Shown piece by piece: positions 17,119-29,717 of a stretch of DNA of 44,757 nucleotides. The notes below the pieces were generated by a model that was not told the DNA's origin, did no database searches, and saw only the letters and a program-made list of their open reading frames with translations. The stretch spans positions 1 to 44,757 of the forward strand of contig NZ_SDWW01000039.1 of the NCBI RefSeq assembly GCF_004168625.1, in the 5' to 3' direction. A program made the position numbers and the translations under genes. Within the stretch, counting starts at the first letter, position 1; each line of letters opens with the position of its first letter. The DNA is from Pengzhenrongella frigida. GTDB taxonomy: Bacteria; Actinomycetota; Actinomycetes; Actinomycetales; Cellulomonadaceae.

Positions 17119-20007
17119 TCAGCTGCAGCCGCTGGTGGAGCCGCAACCCTCACAGACGTAGCACGAGCCCGACGGACGCATCTTGATCCCGCACGAGAAG
17201 CACAGCGGGGCGTCGGCAGTGCGACCCTGCTGCAGCTCGAACAGCTCCATCGAGGAGTGGATCGCGGGCCGAGGGTGCACCGCGGGGACGACCGGCGTCG
17301 GCGTGGCCACGACCGGCTGGGACGTGAGCGCCGAACCGGTGGTCTGGTTCATCGATTCGAGATCATCGTTCTCGAGCGACTCGTAGGAACCCGTGTCGAG
17401 GTGCCGCGTGCGCTCCTCGGTCGTGTGGATCCCCATGCCGGCACGGGTCTCGTAGGGCAGGTAGTCGAGGGCGAGCCGGCGGAAGATGTAGTCGATGATC
17501 GACTGCGCCATCCGGACGTCCGGGTCGTCGGTCATGCCGGCCGGCTCGAAGCGCAGGTTGGTGAACTTCTGCACGAACGTCTCCAGCGGCACCCCGTGCT
17601 GCAGGGCGATCGAGATGGCGATCGAGAAGGCGTCCATCACCCCGGCCAGGGTCGACCCCTGCTTGCCGAGCCGGAGAAAGACCTCACCGAGGCCGTCGTC
17701 CGGGTAGGAACCGGCCGTCAGGTAGCCCTGCGCGCCCCCCACCGTGAAGGAGGTGGTGATCGACGGGCGGGACTTGGGCAGCCGCCGGCGCACGGGCCGC
17801 ACGGGGGCGGCTGCAGCTGACGCGAGGGCGGCCGCAGCGGCCAGCGCCCTGCTCGCCGTCGTCGACGCCTCGGCCGGGGCGTCCTTGCTGTCGGAGAGCG
17901 GCTGGCCGACCTTGCAGTTGTCGCGGTAGACCGCCAACGCCTTGAGGCCGAGCTTCCACCCCTCGTAGTAGATCTCCTCGATCTCCTCGACCGTCGCGCT
18001 CTCCGGCATGTTCACCGTCTTGGAGATGGCGCCCGAGAGGAACGGCTGGACGGCGGCCATCATCTTGACGTGCCCCATCGGGGCGATCGACCGGCGACCC
18101 ATCGCGGTGTCGAAAATCTCGTAGTGCGCCGGCTGCAACCCGGGCGCGTCCACGACGTGCCCGTTCTCGGCGACGTACTCGACGATCGCCTCGATCGTCT
18201 CGGCTGTGTACCCGAGCTGCTTGAGGGACCGGGGGATGGCCTGGTTGACGATCTGCATCGACCCACCGCCGACCAGCTTCTTGAACTTGACCAGCGAGAA
18301 GTCCGGCTCGATGCCGGTCGTGTCGCAGTCCATCATGAAGCCGATGGTGCCGGTCGGGGCGAGCACGCTCGCCTGGGCGTTGCGCCACCCGTTCGCCTCG
18401 CCGAGGGCGAGACTCTCCTGCCACTGCGCGGTCGCCGCGGCGTGGATCTCGGTGTCCATCGAGTCGATGGTCACCAGCGCGGCGTTCGCGTCGGCGTGCT
18501 TGTGCATGACGCGCTGGTGTGCGGAGGCGTTGCGGGCGTAGCCGTCATACGGGCCGACGACGCCGGCCAGCTCGGCGGAACGCTTGTACGCGGTGCCGGT
18601 CATCAGCGAGGTGATCGACGCGGCGAGCGCGCGCCCACCGGCGGAGTCGTAGCCGTGCCCGGTCGCCATCAGCAGCGCGCCGAGGTTGGCGTACCCGATA
18701 CCCAGCTGGCGGAAGGCACGCGTGGTCTCGGCGATGGCCTCGGTGGGGAAGTCGGCGAAGCAGATCGAGATGTCCATCGCGGTGATGATGAGCTCGACTG
18801 CCTTGACGAACCGCTCGGTGTCGAACGTGTCGTCCTCGCGCAGGAACGCCAGGAGGTTGAGCGACGACAGGTTGCACGAGGAGTTGTCCAGGTGCATGTA
18901 CTCGCTGCACGGGTTGCTCGCGGTGATCCGGCCGGACTCGGGGCTCGTGTGCCAGTCGTTGATCGTGCCGTCGTACTGGATGCCCGGGTCGGCGCAGGCC
19001 CACGCGGCCTGGGAGATCTTCCGGAACAGACCCTTGGCGTCGACCGTCTCGATCACCCGGCCGTCCTGGCGGGCCTTGAGGTCGAAGCCGGTGCCCTTCT
19101 CGACCGCGTGCATGAACTCGTCCGTGACCCGGACGGAGTTGTTCGCGTTCTGGTACTGGACCGAGATGATGTCCTTGCCACCGAGGTCCATGTCGTAGCC
19201 GGCCTCGCGCAGGGCGCGGATCTTGCCCTCCTCGAGGGCCTTGGTCTCGACGAACTCCTCGATGTCCGGGTGGTCGACGTCGAGCACGACCATCTTGGCC
19301 GCGCGACGCGTGGCGCCACCCGACTTGATGGTGCCCGCGGACGCGTCGGCGCCGCGCATGAACGAGATCGGGCCGCTCGCGGTTCCGCCGGAGGAGAGCA
19401 GCTCCTTCGACGAGCGGATCCGCGAGAGGTTCAGGCCTGCGCCGGAACCGCCCTTGAAGATCAGGCCTTCCTCGCGGTACCAGTTGAGGATCGAGTCCAT
19501 GGTGTCGTCCACGGCGAGGATGAAGCACGCGCTGACCTGCTGCGGCGACGGCGTGCCGACGTTGAACCACACCGGGGAGTTGAACGAGAAGACCTGGTGC
19601 ACGAGCATCCAGGTGAGCTCGTGCTCGAAGATCTCCGCGTCGGCGTCGGTGGCGAAGTAGCCGTTCTCGACCCCGGCCTTGGTGTACGCGAGCACGACGC
19701 GGTTGATCAGCTGCTTGAGGCTCCACTCGCGGGTCTCGGACCCGACGGCGCCGCGGAAGTACTTGGTCGTGACGATGGTGGCCGCGTTGAGCGACCACGA
19801 CTTGGGGAACTCGACGTCCTTCTGCTCGAAGATCGTCTCGCCCGACTTCCAGTTCGTCTGGAGGATGTCGCGACGTTCCCAGACCACGTCGTCGTAGGGA
19901 TGGACCCCTGCGGTGGTGAACACGCGACCGATCGTCAGCGCCGGATTCCGGGTGCCCTCGCCACCGTTCGTCCCGGTCTGCCCGGCTGCCTGCGACGTCT
20001 TGCTCAT
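17119..20007 (-). CDS. nrdJ: NrdJ, adenosylcobalamin-dependent (class II) ribonucleotide reductase
   Basis: A 962-residue class II ribonucleotide reductase that makes deoxyribonucleotides using a radical from adenosylcobalamin, without oxygen. The active-site NxCxE motif is NPCSE with C367. It is followed by HLDNSSCNLSSLNLL. Other family blocks are SFNSPVWFNVG, FKGGSGAGLNLSRIRS and VLAPTGTIGFMMDCDTTGIEPDFSL. The C-terminus ends in a zinc-ribbon-like cysteine cluster (CFSCGIKM, then CYVCEGCGSTSGCS), which regenerates the active-site disulfide. The ATG has GGGAG upstream. Two NrdR boxes lie 33-80 bases upstream, and a strong hairpin follows the stop. It sits directly downstream of a B12 importer operon on the same strand. 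Confidence 0.97.
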   Translation of the reverse strand: MSKTSQAAGQTGTNGGEGTRNPALTIGRVFTTAGVHPYDDVVWERRDILQTNWKSGETIFEQKDVEFPKSWSLNAATIVTTKYFRGAVGSETREWSLKQLINRVVLAYTKAGVENGYFATDADAEIFEHELTWMLVHQVFSFNSPVWFNVGTPSPQQVSACFILAVDDTMDSILNWYREEGLIFKGGSGAGLNLSRIRSSKELLSSGGTASGPISFMRGADASAGTIKSGGATRRAAKMVVLDVDHPDIEEFVETKALEEGKIRALREAGYDMDLGGKDIISVQYQNANNSVRVTDEFMHAVEKGTGFDLKARQDGRVIETVDAKGLFRKISQAAWACADPGIQYDGTINDWHTSPESGRITASNPCSEYMHLDNSSCNLSSLNLLAFLREDDTFDTERFVKAVELIITAMDISICFADFPTEAIAETTRAFRQLGIGYANLGALLMATGHGYDSAGGRALAASITSLMTGTAYKRSAELAGVVGPYDGYARNASAHQRVMHKHADANAALVTIDSMDTEIHAAATAQWQESLALGEANGWRNAQASVLAPTGTIGFMMDCDTTGIEPDFSLVKFKKLVGGGSMQIVNQAIPRSLKQLGYTAETIEAIVEYVAENGHVVDAPGLQPAHYEIFDTAMGRRSIAPMGHVKMMAAVQPFLSGAISKTVNMPESATVEEIEEIYYEGWKLGLKALAVYRDNCKVGQPLSDSKDAPAEASTTASRALAAAAALASAAAAPVRPVRRRLPKSRPSITTSFTVGGAQGYLTAGSYPDDGLGEVFLRLGKQGSTLAGVMDAFSIAISIALQHGVPLETFVQKFTNLRFEPAGMTDDPDVRMAQSIIDYIFRRLALDYLPYETRAGMGIHTTEERTRHLDTGSYESLENDDLESMNQTTGSALTSQPVVATPTPVVPAVHPRPAIHSSMELFELQQGRTADAPLCFSCGIKMRPSGSCYVCEGCGSTSGCS

Positions 20008-20039
20008 GCCATCTCCCTAGGACGGATTCGATGTGACCT

Positions 20040-20086
20040 ACCACTACTTGTGGTTACTCGTTTCCGGTGCACCACTATATGTGGTG
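20040..20086 (-). promoter_or_regulatory. pair of NrdR boxes upstream of nrdJ
   Basis: Two similar partly palindromic sites, ACCACTACTTGTGGTT (20040-20055) and ACCACTATATGTGGTG (20071-20086), start 31 bp apart, about three helical turns. This matches the paired 16-bp NrdR boxes with about 15 bp between them that lie upstream of ribonucleotide reductase genes and bind the ATP/dATP-sensing repressor NrdR. The nearer site ends 33 bases before the nrdJ ATG, so both probably overlap the promoter. Confidence 0.88.
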
Positions 20087-20144
20087 TGCGAGGGCGGCGG
20101 CGGGACCTCGACGGAGTTTTTCTCCGACGGCGTGTCGGGGCGGA

Positions 20145-21065
20145 TCAAGACCCAGTTCGCGGGCGCTTTCCGGTGTCCGCGGCGGCTGCGGCGGTCATGA
20201 AAACCGCGCGCGTCGCGCCGCGGCGCAGGATCGCCAGGACCGGTCGGCCGACGACGACGACGCCCAGCGCGGTCGTGATCGCTCGACCGACGTCCCAGCC
20301 GAGCGACGTCGCGATGCTGAACAGCCAGAACCTGCGCAGGTTCTCGACCGGCGGGTCCCCGGCCACGAACGACAGCGCCGTGTCCCCGCCCAGCTGGAAC
20401 GGCCACCAGGACATGTTCAGCGCCACCCCGTACGCGAGCCCGGCCACAGCGGCGTAGCCCGCGAGCGCCGCCACCTCGCCACGGCCCCGCAGGCGGCCGG
20501 GCAGGAGCCCGGCTCCGAGCCCGACCCAGGAGGCGCCGAGCATCTGGAACGGCAGCCACGGGCCCACCCCGCCGGTCAGGAGGGCGGACGCGAAGAGGGT
20601 CGTCGACCCGAGGGCGAACCCGAAGCCGGGGCCGAACACGCGCCCGCCGAGCACGATCACGAGGAACACCGTCTCGACGCCGGCGGTCCCGGCGGACAGC
20701 GGCCGCAGCACCGCACCCACCGCCGACAGCAGCCCCAGCATCGCGATCGCCTTGACGTCGATCCCGCCGTCACTGAGCGCGACGAAGACGACGGAGAGCA
20801 CCGAGAGCAGCACGACAGCGAGCACGAGCGGTGCATCCGTGCCCTGCGCCAGGGCCTGGTTCGGGTCGATCAGGAGCGGCCAGCAGAACGCCAGGACGCC
20901 CACGGCGGAGGCGAGCGCGAGCACCAGTGCGGTGCGCAGCGTCACCGGCACCGCCGGCACCGCCGGAGGTGCTGACACTCCTGGCCCTGCTGGCGCCGCT
21001 GGCACCGCGCGCGTCCTCGCCTCCGGCGCCGTCACCCCCACCGCGGAGCCGCCTGGCCGGCTCAT
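20145..21065 (-). CDS. ECF transporter S component, predicted cobalamin (CbrT-like)
   Basis: A 306-residue membrane protein with about six to eight hydrophobic segments (for example LVLALASAVGVLAFCWPLL, and AGVETVFLVIVLGGRVFGPG). It has the small-xx-small alanine/glycine pattern and GFALGSTTLFASALLTGGVGPWLPFQM stretch (split: GFALGSTTLF, ALLTGGVGPWLPFQM) of large ECF substrate-binding subunits. The first 40 residues are an Ala/Pro-rich cytoplasmic extension. Its ATG overlaps the stop of the ECF ATPase gene. Cobalamin as substrate is inferred from the riboswitch at the operon head, the transcobalamin-like protein and nrdJ downstream. The sequence alone would not decide between vitamins. Confidence 0.82.
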   Translation of the reverse strand: MSRPGGSAVGVTAPEARTRAVPAAPAGPGVSAPPAVPAVPVTLRTALVLALASAVGVLAFCWPLLIDPNQALAQGTDAPLVLAVVLLSVLSVVFVALSDGGIDVKAIAMLGLLSAVGAVLRPLSAGTAGVETVFLVIVLGGRVFGPGFGFALGSTTLFASALLTGGVGPWLPFQMLGASWVGLGAGLLPGRLRGRGEVAALAGYAAVAGLAYGVALNMSWWPFQLGGDTALSFVAGDPPVENLRRFWLFSIATSLGWDVGRAITTALGVVVVGRPVLAILRRGATRAVFMTAAAAADTGKRPRTGS

Positions 21066-22888
21066 CGGGTCGCCGCGGCCATCGCGTCACCGGCGAGCGC
21101 AGCACGCACCGCGTCGACGGTGAGCAGCTCGAGCGGGTGCAGCACCTTCGCGACCTGCGGGGCAAACACCGGCGAGGCCACGAGCACGTCCCGCGTGCTG
21201 CCGTCGGCGACGACATCGCCGTCGGCCAGCACGATCACCCGGCTGGCACACCCCGCCACGAACTCGACGTCGTGGCTCGACAGCACGACGGCGACACCGG
21301 CGGCGGCCCGCTCCGCGAGGACCTGGGTCAACCGCCGCTTGGCCGCGTAGTCGAGCCCACGGGTGGGCTCGTCGAGCAGCAGCACGGGCGGCCCCGCCGC
21401 CAGCTGCACCGCCAGCACGAGCGCGAGCCGCTGCCCCTCCGACAGGTCCCGCGGGTGGGCACCGGCAGGCACCGCGCCGGCGATCCGGGCAAGGAGGCTC
21501 CGGGTGGCGCCCGTGGTGGCCTGCCCCTGGGCGTCGCCTGCTTCGCACTCGGCGTGCACGGAATCCAGGTAGAGCAGGTCCGACGGCGTCTGCGGTACGA
21601 GCGCGACGCACCGACGGGCCTGTGACGGGCGCAGCGTCGCCGGGTCGACATCCCCCGCGGGAAGGTGCGCTCCGTCACCACGCGCGGCGAGCCGCACTCC
21701 GTCACCACGCGCGGCGAGCCGCACTCCGTCACCACGCGCGGCGAGCCGCACGGAACCCCCCGAGCGCGGGCCCGAGCCCTGCAGCGCCCAGAGCAACGAC
21801 GACTTGCCGGCCCCGTTTCGTCCCATCACGGCGACGATCTCGCCGGCCCGCACGTCCAGGTCGACGCCGCGCACGGCATGCACCCGCCCGTGGCGCACGT
21901 GCAGGCCGCGCACCGTGAGCGCCGGCGCGCCCAGCGGCGCTGTCGCCGGGGGCTCGCTCGCCGTGGCACCCACGGCTGGGCTCGACGACGCCGGGCCGAC
22001 CGGCGCCGACACCGGGGCGCGCTCCGCCGATCGCGGGCCGGTGCCGGGCTTCGCCGTCGGGACCAGCGCGATCGAGCCCGCGAGCCGGGCCCGCAGCGGA
22101 GCCGCTCGCCGTCGGGCGTCCCGCACGGACAGCGGCAGCGGGTCCCACCCCGCCAGCCGACCGAGCTCGACGATCGGCGGCACGACCAGCGAGCTGGCGA
22201 GCACCTCGGCCGGCGGCCCGTCGAACGCCGTCCCGTCGCCGCGCAGGCTGATCACCCGGTCCGCGTACTGCACCACGCGTTCGAGGCGGTGCTCGGCGAG
22301 CAGCACGGTGACTCCGAGGTCGTGCACGAGTCGAGTGATGGCGGCGAGCACCTCGTCGGCCGCCGCGGGGTCGAGCGCGGAGGTGGGCTCGTCGAGCACC
22401 AGCACGCGCGGCTGGCTCGTCATGACGGCGCCGAGCGCGACCCGCTGCTGCTCCCCTCCGGACAGGTCGGCGAGCGGCCGACCACGCAGGTCGCCCAGCC
22501 CGAGCAGGTCGACCACCTCCTCGACCCGCTTACGCATGACGCCCGGTGACAGCCCGAGCTGCTCCATGCCGTACGCGAGCTCCTCCTCGGCCGAGTCGGT
22601 GACGAAGCCGGCGAGCGGATCCTGACCCACCACACCGACGACGTCGGCCAGGTCGCGCGGCCGGTGGTCGCGCGTGTCCCGGCCCGCGACGAGGACGCGG
22701 CCGGACAGCAGCCCGCCCGTGAAGTGGGGCACCAGAGCGCAGGCGGCCTGCAGCAGGGTCGACTTTCCCGCCCCGGTCGGCCCGATGACGAGGCAGAGCT
22801 CACCCTCCTCGACGCGCACATCGATGTCGCGCAGCGCGGGTCCCGACTGCCCCGGGTAGGTCACTCCGACCTGCTCGAACGCGATCAT
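21062..22888 (-). CDS. fused double ECF ATPase (EcfA1-EcfA2 in one chain)
   Basis: A 608-residue protein with two ABC ATPase domains in one chain. Domain 1 (about 1-230) has Walker A GPTGAGKST, signature LSGGEQQRVALG and Walker B VLVLDEPTSALDP. Domain 2 (about 330-600) has Walker A GRNGAGKSS, a modified signature LSEGQRLALVLA and Walker B VLLLDEPTRGLD. An Ala/Pro-rich linker joins them. It powers vitamin uptake with the T and S subunits. The ATG overlaps the ecfT stop. Just after the second Walker A lies a triple 9-residue repeat (GVRLAARGD) coded by a 27-bp tandem repeat. A longer upstream frame is inside ecfT and is not used. Confidence 0.9.
   Translation of the reverse strand: MIAFEQVGVTYPGQSGPALRDIDVRVEEGELCLVIGPTGAGKSTLLQAACALVPHFTGGLLSGRVLVAGRDTRDHRPRDLADVVGVVGQDPLAGFVTDSAEEELAYGMEQLGLSPGVMRKRVEEVVDLLGLGDLRGRPLADLSGGEQQRVALGAVMTSQPRVLVLDEPTSALDPAAADEVLAAITRLVHDLGVTVLLAEHRLERVVQYADRVISLRGDGTAFDGPPAEVLASSLVVPPIVELGRLAGWDPLPLSVRDARRRAAPLRARLAGSIALVPTAKPGTGPRSAERAPVSAPVGPASSSPAVGATASEPPATAPLGAPALTVRGLHVRHGRVHAVRGVDLDVRAGEIVAVMGRNGAGKSSLLWALQGSGPRSGGSVRLAARGDGVRLAARGDGVRLAARGDGAHLPAGDVDPATLRPSQARRCVALVPQTPSDLLYLDSVHAECEAGDAQGQATTGATRSLLARIAGAVPAGAHPRDLSEGQRLALVLAVQLAAGPPVLLLDEPTRGLDYAAKRRLTQVLAERAAAGVAVVLSSHDVEFVAGCASRVIVLADGDVVADGSTRDVLVASPVFAPQVAKVLHPLELLTVDAVRAALAGDAMAAATR
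21667..21747 (-). repeat. 27-bp in-frame tandem repeat inside the ECF ATPase gene
   Basis: Three copies of 27 bp, 21667-21693, 21694-21720 and 21721-21747, identical except one base in the first. In frame they add three copies of GVRLAARGD just after the second nucleotide-binding P-loop, between it and the Q-loop. Because the unit is a multiple of three, copy number can change without breaking the frame. Near identity suggests recent slippage. Confidence 0.92.
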
Positions 22889-24048
22889 CGGGACCCGCCC
22901 GACCGGACGGCGCCCGGGTCCGTGGCGCGAAGCACTGCCGGCGCGGCGGCGAGCAGGGTCGCCACGAGGGCGACCGGCGGAACGCTCGGCCAGGTGAGCG
23001 GGCTCAGCGACGGATCCAGTCCGTCCGGGCTCATCCCGAGCGCGCCGGCGAGCAGCAACGCGACCGCCAGCCCGCACGCGGCGATGAGACTCTCCGGCAG
23101 ACCCCACGGGTCGGGCCGGTACCGGGTCCGCCGGACCCGGCGTCCCGCGAGCACGGAGCCGCCGACGGCGATCACCGCGCCCGCCGCGAGGAGCGGGAGC
23201 CCGAGCCAGTCGGGTGAGGTCCCGTCGAGCAGGCCGTAGGTGCCCAGGGCCGCGGCGACGAGCGACACCAGCAGCGCCGCCGTGATCCGCGCGTCGCTGC
23301 GACCGGACTGGGACCGGGCGTAGCCGCGCGAATCCATGGAGGCGGCCAGGGCCAGCGACCGGTCGAGAGCGTCAGCCAGCACGGGAAGCGCGCACGCGAG
23401 CACGGACCGCAGCCCCCGGTCGTCCTGGCCGCGCAGCCGCTGGGCGCGGCGCACCCGCACCACCGACGACACCAGCTGCGGGGTCACCGTCACGGCGATC
23501 ACGATGGCCGTGCCGATGTGGTGCAGCGACGCGGGCAGGCACCGCAGGGCTCGCTTCGGGTTCGCGAGCGCGTTGGCAGCCCCGAAGCACACGATGAGGG
23601 CCGCGAGCCGGAGGCCGCCGTACACAGCAGCGAGCAGACCCGTGAGGTGCACGGGCCCCAGCAGCTCGACGCCCGTGGCCCACCCGGGCATCGCGATGCT
23701 CGGCAGGTCGAGGAGCACCGGGCCGCCTGCCTTGATCCCGACCAGGATGTAGAAGGCCACGCGGACGGCGATGATCGCGACCCCGAGCACGAGGTAGGCG
23801 CCGAACGCACGGGCCCAGGGTGAGTCGTCCCGCCGCACCACGACGACGAGGACCGTCGCGGCGAGCAACATCCCGATCACGAGCGGGTTGGTCGTGCGGG
23901 TGACGGCCACGGCCAGCCCGAGGGCCCAGGCCCACCACGCGAGCGGATGCACAGATCGGTCGCGCCCGGTCGGCCGGCGGCGCGTCGAGTCCCGCCCGGG
24001 GGTGGGTTCCCCCGAGCGCGACCCGACCGCCGGCGCGACCGCGACCAT
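22885..24048 (-). CDS. ECF transporter T component (EcfT/CbiQ family)
   Basis: A 387-residue membrane protein that couples the ECF ATPases to the S component. It has about six to eight hydrophobic segments. The cytoplasmic coupling motif appears as SLALAASMDSRGYARS, the x-R-G signature of EcfT/CbiQ. A basic cytoplasmic loop precedes it (RVRRAQRLRGQDDRG). The ANALANPKRALRCLPASLH segment is another EcfT hallmark. The N-terminal 35 residues are Arg-rich. The C-terminal part has extra membrane segments beyond the usual 260 residues, so the protein is longer than classical EcfT. It starts 6 bases after the upstream gene's stop and overlaps the ATPase gene by ATGA. Confidence 0.88.
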   Translation of the reverse strand: MVAVAPAVGSRSGEPTPGRDSTRRRPTGRDRSVHPLAWWAWALGLAVAVTRTTNPLVIGMLLAATVLVVVVRRDDSPWARAFGAYLVLGVAIIAVRVAFYILVGIKAGGPVLLDLPSIAMPGWATGVELLGPVHLTGLLAAVYGGLRLAALIVCFGAANALANPKRALRCLPASLHHIGTAIVIAVTVTPQLVSSVVRVRRAQRLRGQDDRGLRSVLACALPVLADALDRSLALAASMDSRGYARSQSGRSDARITAALLVSLVAAALGTYGLLDGTSPDWLGLPLLAAGAVIAVGGSVLAGRRVRRTRYRPDPWGLPESLIAACGLAVALLLAGALGMSPDGLDPSLSPLTWPSVPPVALVATLLAAAPAVLRATDPGAVRSGGSR

Positions 24049-24054
24049 CCGGGC

Positions 24055-24729
24055 TCAGCCGCGACCGTCGTCGTCGGGCTGCCCGGCGGCGCGGCGGCGC
24101 CGCACCATGACCAGGACGGAGGCGAGCAGCACGGCGAGCACGCCGAGCCCCGCAACGGTCGCCCACGACGACGACCCGCTCTCGTCGCTCGGGTCGGCTG
24201 CGACCGGAGCCGCCGGAGCTGCGGTCTCGGTCGCCGCCCCCGCGGCGGGGTCCGCCGCCTCGAGCGCGGCCGGGGCGAGGCCCGGTCCGGTCGAGCCGTC
24301 GTTGTACCGCCAGCCCTCGAACGCACCCGGCACCGGGTCGCTCGAGCCGGCACCGACCGCGTAGGCCGTCCAGTCGGCGTCGGCCTCGGCCGACCAGTAG
24401 GACCAGTACGAGCCGTCGAACGTCTCGGGGCACGGGTCGGGTGCGGCGTTGATCGCGCAGATCATGCCGGGCGTCGAGTCGGCCACGGTGAAGCCGGCAT
24501 CGACGAGCGCCTGGCGCCCGGTCGCGGGATCGCCGTCGGCGCAGCTCACGACGACGTCACCGCCGAGGTCGGTGAGGTCGACGACGACGGTCACCCCGGA
24601 CGCGTCCGCGCAGGCGCCGGCTGCGGGAACCTCGCCCGGCAGGCTGGCGGCAGATGCGCCGGCGGCGGTCGCCAGGGACGCGGGCAGGAGGAGGGAAGTG
24701 AAGAACAGGACAGCCGTGGTCTTACGCAC
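24055..24729 (-). CDS. secreted membrane-anchored protein with transcobalamin/intrinsic-factor-like C-terminal domain
   Basis: A 224-residue exported protein from a GTG start with GAGAGG upstream. It has a signal peptide (residues 1-28, RKTTAVLFFTSLLLPASL), a globular domain (about 35-140), an Ala/Pro-rich stalk, and a C-terminal anchor helix (GLGVLAVLLASVLVMV) followed by RRRR, so it faces the outside of the membrane. The domain contains ATGRQALVDAGFTV, an ICAIN strand, a YWSYWSA segment and AFEGWRYNDG. This is the pattern I associate with the DUF4430 domain, related to the C-terminal domain of transcobalamin and intrinsic factor. It is the first gene after a cobalamin riboswitch, so B12 capture for the ECF importer is the likely role, by inference. 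Confidence 0.75.
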   Translation of the reverse strand: MRKTTAVLFFTSLLLPASLATAAGASAASLPGEVPAAGACADASGVTVVVDLTDLGGDVVVSCADGDPATGRQALVDAGFTVADSTPGMICAINAAPDPCPETFDGSYWSYWSAEADADWTAYAVGAGSSDPVPGAFEGWRYNDGSTGPGLAPAALEAADPAAGAATETAAPAAPVAADPSDESGSSSWATVAGLGVLAVLLASVLVMVRRRRAAGQPDDDGRG

Positions 24730-24821
24730 CGGGTGCCTCTCGTGAGCGGTCGGCGACGGCCCGGCACCGCGAGCTCCGAGGCGTGACCGGAGCGGTCGCG
24801 CGGGCGGAAGACGACGATCCG

Positions 24822-24854
24822 GACTCCGTCCCGCAGACCTCGGCGGATGGAGTC
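24822..24854 (-). promoter_or_regulatory. candidate expression-platform hairpin of the cobalamin riboswitch
   Basis: GACTCC (24822-24827) and GGAGTC (24849-24854) can pair, extended inward by a few more pairs past one A-C mismatch. The hairpin starts 4 bases after the end of the riboswitch core on the minus strand and about 80 bases before the ribosome binding site. It could act as the terminator or antiterminator arm. The pairing is weakly supported. Confidence 0.4.
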
Positions 24855-24857
24855 GAT

Positions 24858-24960
24858 CGCCTCGAGCAGGCGTTCCGGCTTGTCGTGACGGTCGAGCTGT
24901 CACGACCTACGGTTGCGGGTCAGCGCCGGATTCGGACCGGCTTCCCCTGAGCACGAGGCG
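24858..24960 (-). promoter_or_regulatory. cobalamin riboswitch (B12 box) for the ECF operon
   Basis: Read on the minus strand, this segment contains the hallmark cobalamin aptamer elements in order. They are GGGGAAGCCGGTCCGAATCC (as GGGGAAGCCGGT and GAATCCGG), then GCTGACCCGCAACCGT (core GACCCGCAAC at 24921-24909), a variable stem-loop, and the B12 box AAGCCGGAACGCCTGCT (24881-24865). CGCCTCG (24960-24954) and CGAGGCG (24864-24858) pair to close the structure. It lies about 130 bases upstream of the secreted-protein start. Adenosyl- or other cobalamins would switch off the importer operon when B12 is plentiful. The aptamer is compact and its 5' helices are less standard. Confidence 0.93.
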
Positions 24961-24973
24961 GGTGAAGCGCAGA

Positions 24974-25001
24974 GCAACCGGTCGGCGATCAGACCGGTTG
25001 C
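24974..25001. promoter_or_regulatory. 10-bp inverted repeat between the riboswitch and pduO
   Basis: GCAACCGGTC and GACCGGTTGC are perfect arms with an 8-base spacer. The element lies 13 bases upstream of the riboswitch closing stem and 46 bases before the pduO start. It could be an operator shared by the two divergent units or an upstream hairpin of the riboswitch transcript. The sequence does not say which. Confidence 0.6.
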
Positions 25002-25047
25002 GCGATTCTACGCCCGCACCCGGGCTCGCCGACGGCGATCATGGGGC

Positions 25048-25596
25048 ATGCGCATCTACACCAAGACCGGCGACGACGGCACGACCGGACGCTTCCTCGG
25101 CGGCCGGGTCTCGAAGGGGGACGAGCTGGTCGACGCGAACGGTGACGTCGACGAGTCGGTCGCCCTGCTCGGGGTGGCCCGCAGCGGCTGCAGCGATCCG
25201 GACCTGGCCGAGCTGCTGCTGCGCCTGCAGCGAGAGATGTTCGTGGTGGGCGCCGACCTGGCAGCCAACCCCGAGCGGCGCGAGCGGCTCACCGCCGGGG
25301 TCTCGTTGGTCACACCGGACATGGTCGCCGAGCTGGAGGAGATCATCGACCGGCTCGTGGCCGAGCGACCGCTGCGGCCGGTCTTCGTGGTCCCGGGCGC
25401 GACGCCGACCGGCGCGGCGATCGACCATGCCCGCACGGTCGTCCGCCGGGCGGAACGGCACGTGGTGCGGGCGCAGGAGCACGGTCACGCCGCCAGCCAG
25501 GACACGTTGCGCTACCTGAACCGGCTTTCCGACCTGCTCTTCGTGCTGGCACGCCGGGCGGCCGACGAGGTCGATGAGCCCGCCAGCCGACCGTGA
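25048..25596 (+). CDS. PduO-type cob(I)alamin adenosyltransferase
   Basis: A 182-residue adenosyltransferase that transfers the adenosyl group of ATP to cob(I)alamin, giving adenosylcobalamin. The N-terminal ATP motif is RIYTKTGDDGTTG, followed by GGRVSKGD. The ATP and cobalamin-site residues of the family appear as VFVVPGATP, HARTVVRRAERHVV (two conserved arginines) and YLNRLSDLLFVLARRA. The segment VDANGDVDESVALLG replaces the more usual AYGxVDELN pattern, a moderate divergence. The ATG at 25048 is chosen because homology starts there; no clear ribosome binding site is visible. It is divergent from the riboswitch-controlled B12 importer and supplies the cofactor needed by NrdJ. Confidence 0.9.
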   Translation: MRIYTKTGDDGTTGRFLGGRVSKGDELVDANGDVDESVALLGVARSGCSDPDLAELLLRLQREMFVVGADLAANPERRERLTAGVSLVTPDMVAELEEIIDRLVAERPLRPVFVVPGATPTGAAIDHARTVVRRAERHVVRAQEHGHAASQDTLRYLNRLSDLLFVLARRAADEVDEPASRP

Positions 25597-26063: not shown

Positions 26064-26291
26064 ATGACCACCACGACCGACTACATCGTCACCGGCATGA
26101 CCTGCGGCCACTGCGTCAGCGCGGTGACCAGCGAGCTGACCGCCCTGCCGGGGGTGAGCGGAGTGTCGATCAACCTCGTGGTCGACGGAAGCTCGACCGT
26201 GACGGTGCAGAGCGCGTCGCCGCTGCCCGAGCAGGCCGTGCGCGAGGCCGTGGACGAGGCGGGCTACGTGTTGCAAGGCGCCAAGGAGTGA
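26064..26291 (+). CDS. copZ: CopZ-like copper chaperone
   Basis: A 75-residue heavy-metal-associated (HMA) domain protein with the Cu(I)-binding motif GMTCGHC (C14 and C17). Helix and strand order match the ferredoxin-like HMA fold: [17 protein letters not shown] and [15 protein letters not shown]. It carries Cu(I) in the cytoplasm to CopA. GGGGAGAG lies just upstream of the ATG. The stop overlaps the copA GTG. Confidence 0.94.
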
Positions 26292-28606
26292 CAGTGCCCA
26301 TCTCGAGCACGCCCGCGTCGCCCCCACCAGCCACCGTCACTGGTGGCGGTGTCGGCAGCGTCGCCGGCACGGGAGCGCCGGCCGACACCGGGACGATCGA
26401 GCTGACCATCGGCGGCATGACCTGCGCGTCCTGCGCGGCCCGCGTCGAGAAGAAGCTCAACCGGATGGACGGCGTCAGCGCCACGGTGAACTACTCCACC
26501 GAGAAGGCCAAGGTCACCTTTGCCTCGACGGTGACCCCGGCCGACCTGGTCGCCACCGTCGAGGCCACCGGCTACAGCGCAGCCCTGCCCGCACCACCGC
26601 GGCGCGACGGGCAGCCAGGTGAGCCGGACCCGGCCGCCGCCGTACGTCGTCGGCTGATCGTCAGCGCCGTCCTGGCGCTGCCGGTGGTCGCGCTGGCGAT
26701 GGTGCCCGCGTGGCAGTTCGACTACTGGCAGTGGGTCTCGCTGGTGCTGGCGACCCCGGTGGTCACCTGGGGTGCGTGGCCGTTCCATCGGGCGGCGTGG
26801 ACGAACCTGAGGCACCGGGCCGCCACGATGGACACCCTCATCAGCCTCGGCGTGCTCGCGGCGTACACGTGGTCCCTGTACGCGCTCCTGTTCGGCGGCG
26901 CCGGCGAGCCGGGCATGGACATGCCGTTCACGCTCGTGCCCTCGAGCGGGACCGGGACGCCCGAGATCTACCTCGAGGTCGCCTCCGCGGTGACCGTGTT
27001 CATCCTGACCGGCCGCTACCTGGAGGCGCGCGCGAAGCGGACCTCCGGGCAGGCCTTGCGGGCGCTGCTCGAGCTCGGAGCCAAGGACGTCGCCGTCCTG
27101 CGCGACGGGGTCGAGACGCGGATCGCGGTCGACGATCTCGTGGTCGGTGACACCTTCGTGGTGCGCCCGGGGGAGAAGCTCGCGACCGACGGCGTCATCG
27201 TCGAGGGCGCCAGCGCGGTCGACGCCTCGATGATCACCGGCGAGTCCGTGCCGGTGGAGGTGGGCCCGGGCGACAGCGTCGTGGGTGCGACCACCAACGC
27301 CGCCGGTCGGCTCGTGGTGCGGGCGACGCGGGTGGGCGGCGACACGCAGCTCGCCCAGATGGCCCGGCTCGTCGCCGACGCCCAGAACGGCAAGGCCGAC
27401 GTGCAGCGGCTGGCGGACCGCGTCTCGGCCGTGTTCGTCCCGATCGTGATCCTGCTGGCGCTGGCGACGCTCGTCGGCTGGCTCGTGCTCGGCCCGAACG
27501 CGCAGGCCGCGTTCACGGCGGCCGTCGCCGTGCTCATCATCGCGTGCCCGTGCGCGCTCGGGCTGGCCACGCCGACGGCGCTCATGGTCGGCACCGGCCG
27601 GGGCGCCCAGCTCGGGATCCTGATCAAGGGTCCGCAGATCCTGGAGTCGACCCGCCGGGTCGACACGATCGTGCTCGACAAGACCGGCACCGTGACCACC
27701 GGCCGGATGAGCCTCGTCGAGGTCATCGCCGCGGACGGGGAGAGCGAGACGGAGGTGCTCCGCCTCGCCGGCGCCCTCGAGGACGCCTCCGAGCACCCCA
27801 TCGCCCGCGCGGTCGCGGATGGCGCCCGCCTCCGGCTCGGCGCTCTGCCGCCGGTCGACGGGTTCGCCAGCACCGAGGGTCGCGGGGTGGCCGGGGTCGT
27901 CGACTCGCGGGCCGTCACCGTCGGCCAGCGATCCTGGCTGGCCGAGGACTGGTCCCAGCACGCCCCGGCCACGCTGCTCGAGGCGTCGGACGCGGCCGAG
28001 CACCTCGGGCGCAGCCCGGTGTGGGTCGGGTGGGACGGCGCGGTCCGGGGGGTCGTGGTGGTGGCCGACACGGTCAAGCCGACGAGCGCCGAGGCGATCA
28101 CCGAGCTTCGCCGGCTCGGGCTGCGTCCGATCCTGCTCACCGGTGACAACGCCCGGTCGGCCGCCGCGGTCGCCGCTCAGGTCGGGATCGATGCTGCCGA
28201 CGTCGTCGCGCAGGTTCGGCCGGCCGAAAAGGTCGAGGTCGTCCGGCGGCTCCAGGCGGAGGGGGGCGTGGTCGCTATGGTCGGTGACGGCGTGAACGAC
28301 GCCGCGGCCCTGGCCCAGTCCGACCTCGGACTCGCCATGGGATCGGGCACGGACGTCGCCATCGAGGCGAGCGATCTGACCCTGGTGCGGTCGGACCTGC
28401 GCTCGGCCGCGGTCGCCATCCGGCTCTCGCGGCGCACGCTCGGCACGATCAAGGGCAACCTGTTCTGGGCGTTCGCCTACAACCTGGCCGCACTGCCGCT
28501 CGCCGCGGCCGGCCTGCTCAACCCGATGATCGCCGGCGCCGCGATGGCGTTCTCGTCGGTCTTCGTCGTGACCAACAGCTTGCGGCTGCGGCGCTTCGAG
28601 GAGTGA
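26288..28606 (+). CDS. copA: CopA, Cu(I)-exporting P1B-type ATPase
   Basis: A 772-residue heavy-metal ATPase. The Pro/Gly-rich first 35 residues precede one N-terminal HMA domain with GGMTCASC (C46 and C49). The membrane CPC metal site is C420-P421-C422, the phosphorylated residue D464 in DKTGTVTTG, the HP motif [11 protein letters not shown] and the hinge [15 protein letters not shown]. The C-terminal membrane segments contain [12 protein letters not shown] and [17 protein letters not shown], both typical of Cu(I) exporters. The start is GTG overlapping the copZ stop; a GTG two codons later is also possible. Confidence 0.96.
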
Positions 28607-29432: not shown

Positions 29433-29444
29433 GGTGACCTCTCC

Positions 29445-29612
29445 GGTCGCCTGTGGGGTGAGCTGTCGGGTTCGGGCGGAAGTCGCGCCCGGCCGGTCAC
29501 GATCGACCGGCTTCACCCCAAGGACGCCATCGCGGCGTCCGGTGTTCGTGGTTCCCCCGCTCCTGCCAACGAGATGTCACGGTGCCCGAAGCGGTGGCAG
29601 GATTCGGCGGTC
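29445..29612 (-). promoter_or_regulatory. c-di-AMP riboswitch (ydaO-yuaA type) upstream of the NlpC/P60 gene
   Basis: On the minus strand the leader shows the conserved ydaO blocks in order: GCCGAATCCTGCCACC, GGCAGGAGCGGGGGAACCAC, TTGGGGTGAAGCCGG, and CCGCCCGAACCCGACAGCT followed by CACCCCACAGGCG. The complementary GGCAGGA/TCCTGCC arms form one of the helices. It ends about 13-20 bases before the ATG, overlapping the region of the ribosome binding site. High c-di-AMP turns such genes off in Actinobacteria and Firmicutes, so hydrolase synthesis is tied to cell-wall and potassium status. Confidence 0.92.
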
Positions 29613-29717
29613 CACCCCAGGCGTTCCCGGGGGTGGACCCCGGGGACGATCGACCATACCGCGCACCGGGCGGCCCGGGGACAAAAAGTCCACTGCCGGT
29701 CAAAGTTGCGGACGGAC

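Follow-up and report, generated by a model that had tools for sequence, protein, structure and literature searches.

Energy-coupling factor (ECF) transporters for cobalamin under the control of B12 riboswitches were reportedly predicted in Actinobacteria by Rodionov et al. in 2009, under the names CbrTUV. In Lactobacillus delbrueckii, the gene cluster nrdJ-cbrS-cbrT-pduO was used to argue for B12 transport, which was then demonstrated (PMC5997447). The beta domain of human transcobalamin, when expressed separately, is reported to bind cobalamin and to assemble with the alpha domain (PMC5599065). Here we analyze a stretch of 44,757 nucleotides from Pengzhenrongella frigida (contig NZ_SDWW01000039.1, positions 1 to 44,757; hereafter the window), in which an earlier note had proposed a B12 island at 17119-25596. 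All of the elements named in that note were located within this interval and were confirmed by family scores, an RF00174 match, and a gene order that is kept in other loci; read from right to left, they are a divergent pduO, a cobalamin riboswitch, a gene for a surface protein, EcfT, a double EcfA, EcfS, and nrdJ. We interpret them as a self-contained module that would scavenge external corrinoid and spend it on DNA precursors in an organism for which B12 is optional, a reading that we put at a probability of about 0.8. The chain that the note had also proposed, in which a corrinoid would be captured, imported, adenosylated, and then used, is supported because the riboswitch, the beta-domain fold, the PduO adenosyltransferase, and the conserved synteny agree.

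The importer has the makeup of a group I ECF system in that S, T, and two A domains are encoded together: EcfS, a putative corrinoid-specific substrate-binding component with an S-component fold (20145..21065, minus strand; PF12822, 38.3 bits, cut-off 30.7); EcfT of the CbiQ family (22885..24048, minus strand; PF02361, 38.3 bits, cut-off 25); and a fused double EcfA ATPase (21062..22888, minus strand; PF00005 [ABC_tran] in two stretches, 151 bits). Because ecfT/ecfA and ecfA/ecfS overlap by 4 bases each and the surface-protein gene (24055..24729, minus strand) is separated from ecfT by 6 bases, these four genes look like one operon. They are headed by the riboswitch in the importer gene leader (24848..24971, minus strand), and pduO lies on the opposite strand (25048..25596, plus strand), where the ATG at 25048 is a better start than that of the TTG open reading frame at 24913. 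The product matches PF01923 (164.1 bits), and its N-terminal domain exceeds the cut-off of TIGR00636 (146.2 bits, cut-off 108.45), which places it among the PduO-type cob(I)alamin adenosyltransferases. At the other end, nrdJ (17119..20007, minus strand) begins 137 bases past ecfS with putative control sites of its own; residues 11-962 of NrdJ match the B12-dependent equivalog NF005122 over its full length (1588.5 bits, cut-off 859), which makes it an adenosylcobalamin-dependent class II ribonucleotide reductase.

The riboswitch scores 34.7 bits against RF00174 (gathering score 31.5) and is the sole match in the genome at E <= 0.001, with 150 of 255 candidates scored. A scan of genome contigs with EcfS matched at least 591 stretches and yielded at least 574 relatives, 80 of which were kept as loci. 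EcfT is found in all 70 EcfS-family loci with at least 3 kb of upstream sequence, and the importer core is common across Actinobacteria. We built our own covariance model (R1) from nine leaders of cassette or Occultella loci, including that of the window, which it scores at 117.1 bits (24847-24975), the window sequence being part of the model. Upstream of EcfT and on the same strand, R1 matches in each of the 60 EcfS-family loci with at least 9 kb of upstream sequence (weakest match, 46.6 bits), of which 5 helped to build the model and 55 did not; because of this, the riboswitch linkage across the importer family supports a corrinoid as the predicted substrate. The distance from riboswitch to EcfT ranges from 185 to 6263 bases across all 64 loci with both and is below 3 kb in 46 of them. 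As a control, R1 gave no match below E 0.001 in seven importer-free nrdJ loci (best, 18 bits, L014). The stock Rfam model at its gathering score detected the riboswitch in 4 of 7 sampled non-cassette loci, and a permissive search of other cassette or Occultella loci gave subthreshold matches in both of the two searched. Among the nine leaders, 10 of 28 pairs are altered on both sides, a level reached by none of 500 shuffles, with the structure derived from the same alignment. Judged by its RNA family, the riboswitch would repress the importer when adenosylcobalamin is plentiful. Around one Micromonospora importer (L073, 2201-11202), several cobalamin riboswitches occur, and two of these precede SCO2321-like genes.

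The surface protein (224 residues) is a short extracytoplasmic protein with a signal-like N terminus, a transcobalamin-beta-like domain assigned by fold match, a C-terminal helix, and an RRRR tail, the signal peptide and topology having been read from the sequence by eye. No Pfam match was recovered for it at E <= 0.01, a sequence search for a solved relative returned nothing convincing, and its NCBIfam matches are weak and below cut-off; one of these is SCO2322 (16.4 bits, cut-off 85), against which its relatives score 26.8 and 36.1 bits, also below cut-off. A structure model made from a 51-row alignment (mean pLDDT, 78.7; >90 over most of residues 41-150) was searched with Foldseek, and the 19 best PDB matches all belong to one fold group comprising transcobalamin, intrinsic factor, haptocorrin, and the bacterial 3u7z (probability 0.97-1.00), led by the human transcobalamin beta domain (E = 1.3e-3; probability 1.00; TM 0.58 on the target). 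The model thus displays the beta-domain fold of the transcobalamin family, and no alpha/alpha-barrel domain was found within the 224 residues; we take the kinship as a claim only that the protein may work like transcobalamin. Relatives of the protein occur in 58 of the 60 EcfS-family loci whose upstream sequence spans 9 kb or more. The predicted helix at 196-215 followed by RRRR suggests that it is probably membrane anchored and not freely secreted, so of the "secreted transcobalamin-like protein" in the earlier note, the transcobalamin-like part stands by virtue of the fold match and the secretion gives way to a probable anchor.

The alpha domain of transcobalamin is an alpha/alpha barrel. 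In all three non-cassette loci examined, a SCO2321-like protein adjoins the importer (L038, 4643-6232; L073, 4699-6219; L059, 11146-12192). These proteins score 85-108 bits against SCO2321, all under the cut-off of 300, and show weak matches to alpha-toroid folds of the squalene-cyclase type; the L059 protein additionally shows a match to the eukaryotic cobalamin-binding protein family (PF01122; E 0.0014) that falls below cut-off and spans just 15 residues. SCO2321 was matched in 3 of 3 other genomes and in none of the 10 carrier or Occultella genomes, and 3 of 14 control genomes also match it below cut-off. We regard these observations as a lead and not a result, hinting that the predicted alpha-toroid protein beside the importer might be the second half of a bacterial split transcobalamin.

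Several observations weigh against the corrinoid module that we favor. Its transport and binding functions are predictions, corrinoid import itself being predicted from the riboswitch linkage and the neighboring genes. EcfS has no sequence match to a solved B12 S component (PDB; 49-row profile; E <= 10), CbrT is absent among the 50 EcfS fold matches listed, and EcfS was accordingly not filed as a CbrT-type S component. With the stock Rfam model at its gathering score, the riboswitch was found in none of six other cassette or Occultella loci (L006, L007, L008, L033, L034, and L035); the entire leader in the window is no more stable than shuffles (z 0.78); and no fold match of the surface protein passes E <= 0.001. 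The transporter might have a substrate that is not a corrinoid, with cobalt, a lower-ligand base, folate, and riboflavin among the candidates, and belong to the B12 regulon for another reason. The best fold matches of EcfS are, among the matches listed, S components of other substrates; EcfS weakly resembles the NCBIfam folate family (26.8 bits, cut-off 60), and its relatives weakly resemble the riboflavin family, one of them above cut-off (L059, 33.1 bits, cut-off 26.7). Cobalt transporters, moreover, are among the known cobalamin-riboswitch targets (PMC3766115). However, as the genome has no corrin-specific methyltransferase (see below), cobalt or a lower-ligand base alone would be insufficient for B12; PduO and NrdJ adjoin the importer; the predicted operon also encodes the transcobalamin-beta-like protein; and EcfS belongs to PF12822, not CbiM. 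We consider a non-corrinoid substrate unlikely.

The cassette recurs in full order in six other loci (L006, L007 [on the same contig as L032], L008, L034, L035, and L036), and its EcfA-EcfS-nrdJ end is seen in two truncated contigs of Actinotalea ferrariae (L057 and L071), with all cassette-bearing loci falling within Cellulomonadaceae. Two Occultella loci carry the importer together with pduO and the gene for the surface protein, with no adjacent nrdJ. In a survey of 37 genomes of the family (G000-G036, the window genome being G000), four (G000, G011, G025, and G035) have a strong EcfS (507-521 bits), PduO (156-170 bits), and NrdJ verified by tblastn. The other 33 have no strong EcfS or PduO match, and nrdJ absence in them was inferred from reductase match scores, not from gene-by-gene reading; no genome has a strong match to just one of the three. 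G012, G020, G022, G024, and G028 have weaker EcfS relatives, G012 also gives a 37-bit PduO match, and four congeners are without the cassette. PduO was matched in all 11 genomes whose nrdJ was verified by tblastn. In principle, these genes could be neighbors by chance or position, without shared function, and it is consistent with this that nrdJ is found on the same strand within 2.5 kb of the importer in only 6 of the 80 loci and that in seven genomes of other families it lies away from any importer match (0/7 linked), with PduO elsewhere in all seven. The identical order across six other loci, the joint presence or absence of EcfS, PduO, and NrdJ in the 37 family genomes, and the persistence of the order even though the window flanks match none of those of the other six carriers (several of which match each other) make a chance neighborhood hardly credible, and we rejected it for its recurring order and differing flanks. 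The synteny between importer and nrdJ, whose absence in relatives the earlier note had named as refuting its reading, is kept within the family and not beyond it. Outside Cellulomonadaceae, a Virgisporangium locus (L049, 10001-14331) has a convergent nrdJ close downstream of ecfS.

NrdR binds a pair of boxes that are spaced by roughly three turns of the helix (PMC9110341). The gap between EcfS and nrdJ in the window contains two NrdR-box-like palindromes with a spacing of 31 bases, namely, site 1 (20072..20087, minus strand; ACACCACATATAGTGG) and site 2 (20041..20056, minus strand), with a pair score of 22 that none of 300 shuffles reaches; with nrdR also present in the genome, nrdJ has the features of an NrdR regulon member, the sites being putative. 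A palindrome matching site 1 is present in the same gap of all nine carrier loci, and 1.69 Mb of sequence holds 10 occurrences of the pattern in all, the one outside these gaps being at L014 12530, upstream of the L014 nrdJ. The best single box, scored with a consensus, is reached by 0-2 of 500 plain shuffles in eight loci; nrdR was found in all eight carrier genomes tested, and six unlinked nrdJ loci have no box score above chance within 600 bases. Counting on the other side are the facts that the palindrome pattern was composed after the boxes had been seen and that the L007 box, taken by itself, scores poorly (18 of 500 shuffles reach it). Taken with the nrdR gene, the conserved boxes suggest that nrdJ would be controlled separately by NrdR sensing nucleotide levels, giving two predicted circuits, with the riboswitch on the importer and the NrdR-box-like sites on nrdJ. 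One shared regulatory circuit was rejected, as nrdJ has its own sites apart from the riboswitch. The "single logic" from external B12 to deoxyribonucleotides in the earlier note is in this respect oversimplified.

The genome has three PF00590 matches, which resolve into two uroporphyrinogen-III C-methyltransferases (SUMT type) and one 16S rRNA methyltransferase; because none of them is corrin specific, the prediction that the genome is without de novo corrin synthesis is supported. A search of the genome for the B12-binding domain PF02310 gave no protein, which leaves NrdJ as the one B12 enzyme detected, enzymes free of PF02310 (diol dehydratase, EutBC, and QueG) not having been searched for; its role as the "main consumer" is thereby sharpened to that of sole detected consumer. 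Across the eight carriers, PF02310 is absent in G000, G025, G035, and G064 and present in G011, G060, G061, and G062. The earlier note had further predicted cobalamin auxotrophy, with NrdJ as the main reductase, and the lack of a detected corrin pathway is in keeping with this. Its case is also helped, and ours weakened, by two other carriers, G025 (90% complete) and Actinotalea lenta G061, in which NrdJ is the only large subunit detected and B12 may be required. The window genome, however, encodes at a second reductase locus class Ib NrdI, NrdE (1242 bits, cut-off 750), and NrdF, intact by family score, as well as the B12-independent MetE, and a second large reductase subunit is present in six of the eight carrier genomes. 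Auxotrophy was rejected for the window genome on account of NrdI, NrdE, NrdF, and MetE, and we judge it quite unlikely as an account of the module; given the class Ib reductase and MetE, this organism can probably make use of B12 without needing it for growth. Several family genomes also contain a further large-subunit reductase of different size and not of the class Ib type (G001:C12, G004:C1:4139604, G011:C1:3294235, and G035:C18).

With regard to history, the orthologous site of the congener G004 keeps both flanks, that of deoC and that of the c-di-AMP riboswitch, and between them holds an acyltransferase gene and no cassette. In the NrdJ tree the eight carrier rows group with support of 100/100, with the window as the deepest branch, and in the EcfA tree the carrier rows group weakly (83/68). 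The G004 site without a cassette and the unmatched flanks of the window would fit horizontal transfer, but the proteins of the cassette branch as a single family clade, the window deepest, and so loss and rearrangement are as possible. Nor does base composition give a clear sign of foreign origin in the cassette, the G+C content being 72.7-75.9% for the importer and pduO genes, 67.7% for nrdJ, and 72.7% for the window. To the right of pduO, the window encodes a P-type metal ATPase with an HMA domain (26288-28606, plus strand), which was not seen at the G004 site (the closest G004 match is elsewhere in that genome), and then an NlpC/P60 gene (28608-29516) preceded by a c-di-AMP riboswitch (29434-29619, minus strand; 64.5 bits).

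In the proposed mechanism, the anchored beta-domain protein would catch corrinoid at the surface and pass it to EcfS, and a dedicated ECF transporter of EcfS, EcfT, and double EcfA would, going by families, fold, and riboswitch linkage, import it. By their family-level functions, PduO would then make adenosylcobalamin in this cell, and NrdJ would use it to reduce ribonucleotides. More tentatively, and with less than even confidence, we propose that the cassette is gained, lost, or moved whole as a "B12 for DNA" unit, in which a trap, an importer, and an adenosyltransferase serve one optional reductase, which works without oxygen and without an iron or manganese cofactor, in a cell with no other B12 enzyme, and that a wider importer family uses a split transcobalamin of beta-domain and alpha-toroid proteins, a counterpart of the animal B12 carriers. 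If this holds, a bacterium would be importing an expensive vitamin to serve just one enzyme, and an optional one, the cassette would offer a clean whole-unit model for gain or loss of B12 dependence, the named but uncharacterized SCO2321 and SCO2322 families would acquire a testable function, and transcobalamin-like B12 trapping would seem to extend past animals.

Among the papers listed in our literature search, none was recognized as an account of the actinobacterial cassette, and the components of the cassette can be set against several known systems. With the transporters reportedly predicted by Rodionov et al. (2009), it shares an operon of the group I style with its own T, A, and S components under riboswitch control. 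With the SCO2321/SCO2322 NCBIfam families it shares the weak, below-cut-off resemblance of the surface protein to SCO2322, and it is without a SCO2321-like partner. The surface protein has the same fold as the human transcobalamin beta domain (5no0 and 5np4), from which it differs in its ~18% identity, lack of an alpha domain, and predicted bacterial membrane anchor. Closest in concept is the L. delbrueckii nrdJ-cbrS-cbrT-pduO cluster and its ECF-CbrT transporter, where a B12-dependent reductase, an S component, and PduO are likewise clustered, corrinoid import is by an ECF transporter, and the authors state the same functional logic (PMC5997447). There, the host is auxotrophic for B12 and the S component works with a shared ECF module, whereas here the T component and double A component are dedicated; the window adds the riboswitch, the beta-domain surface protein, and a class Ib reductase in its genome, and no sequence relation was detected between EcfS and the L. 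delbrueckii CbrT. The concept was already published for L. delbrueckii, and the actinobacterial cassette is a variant of that logic.

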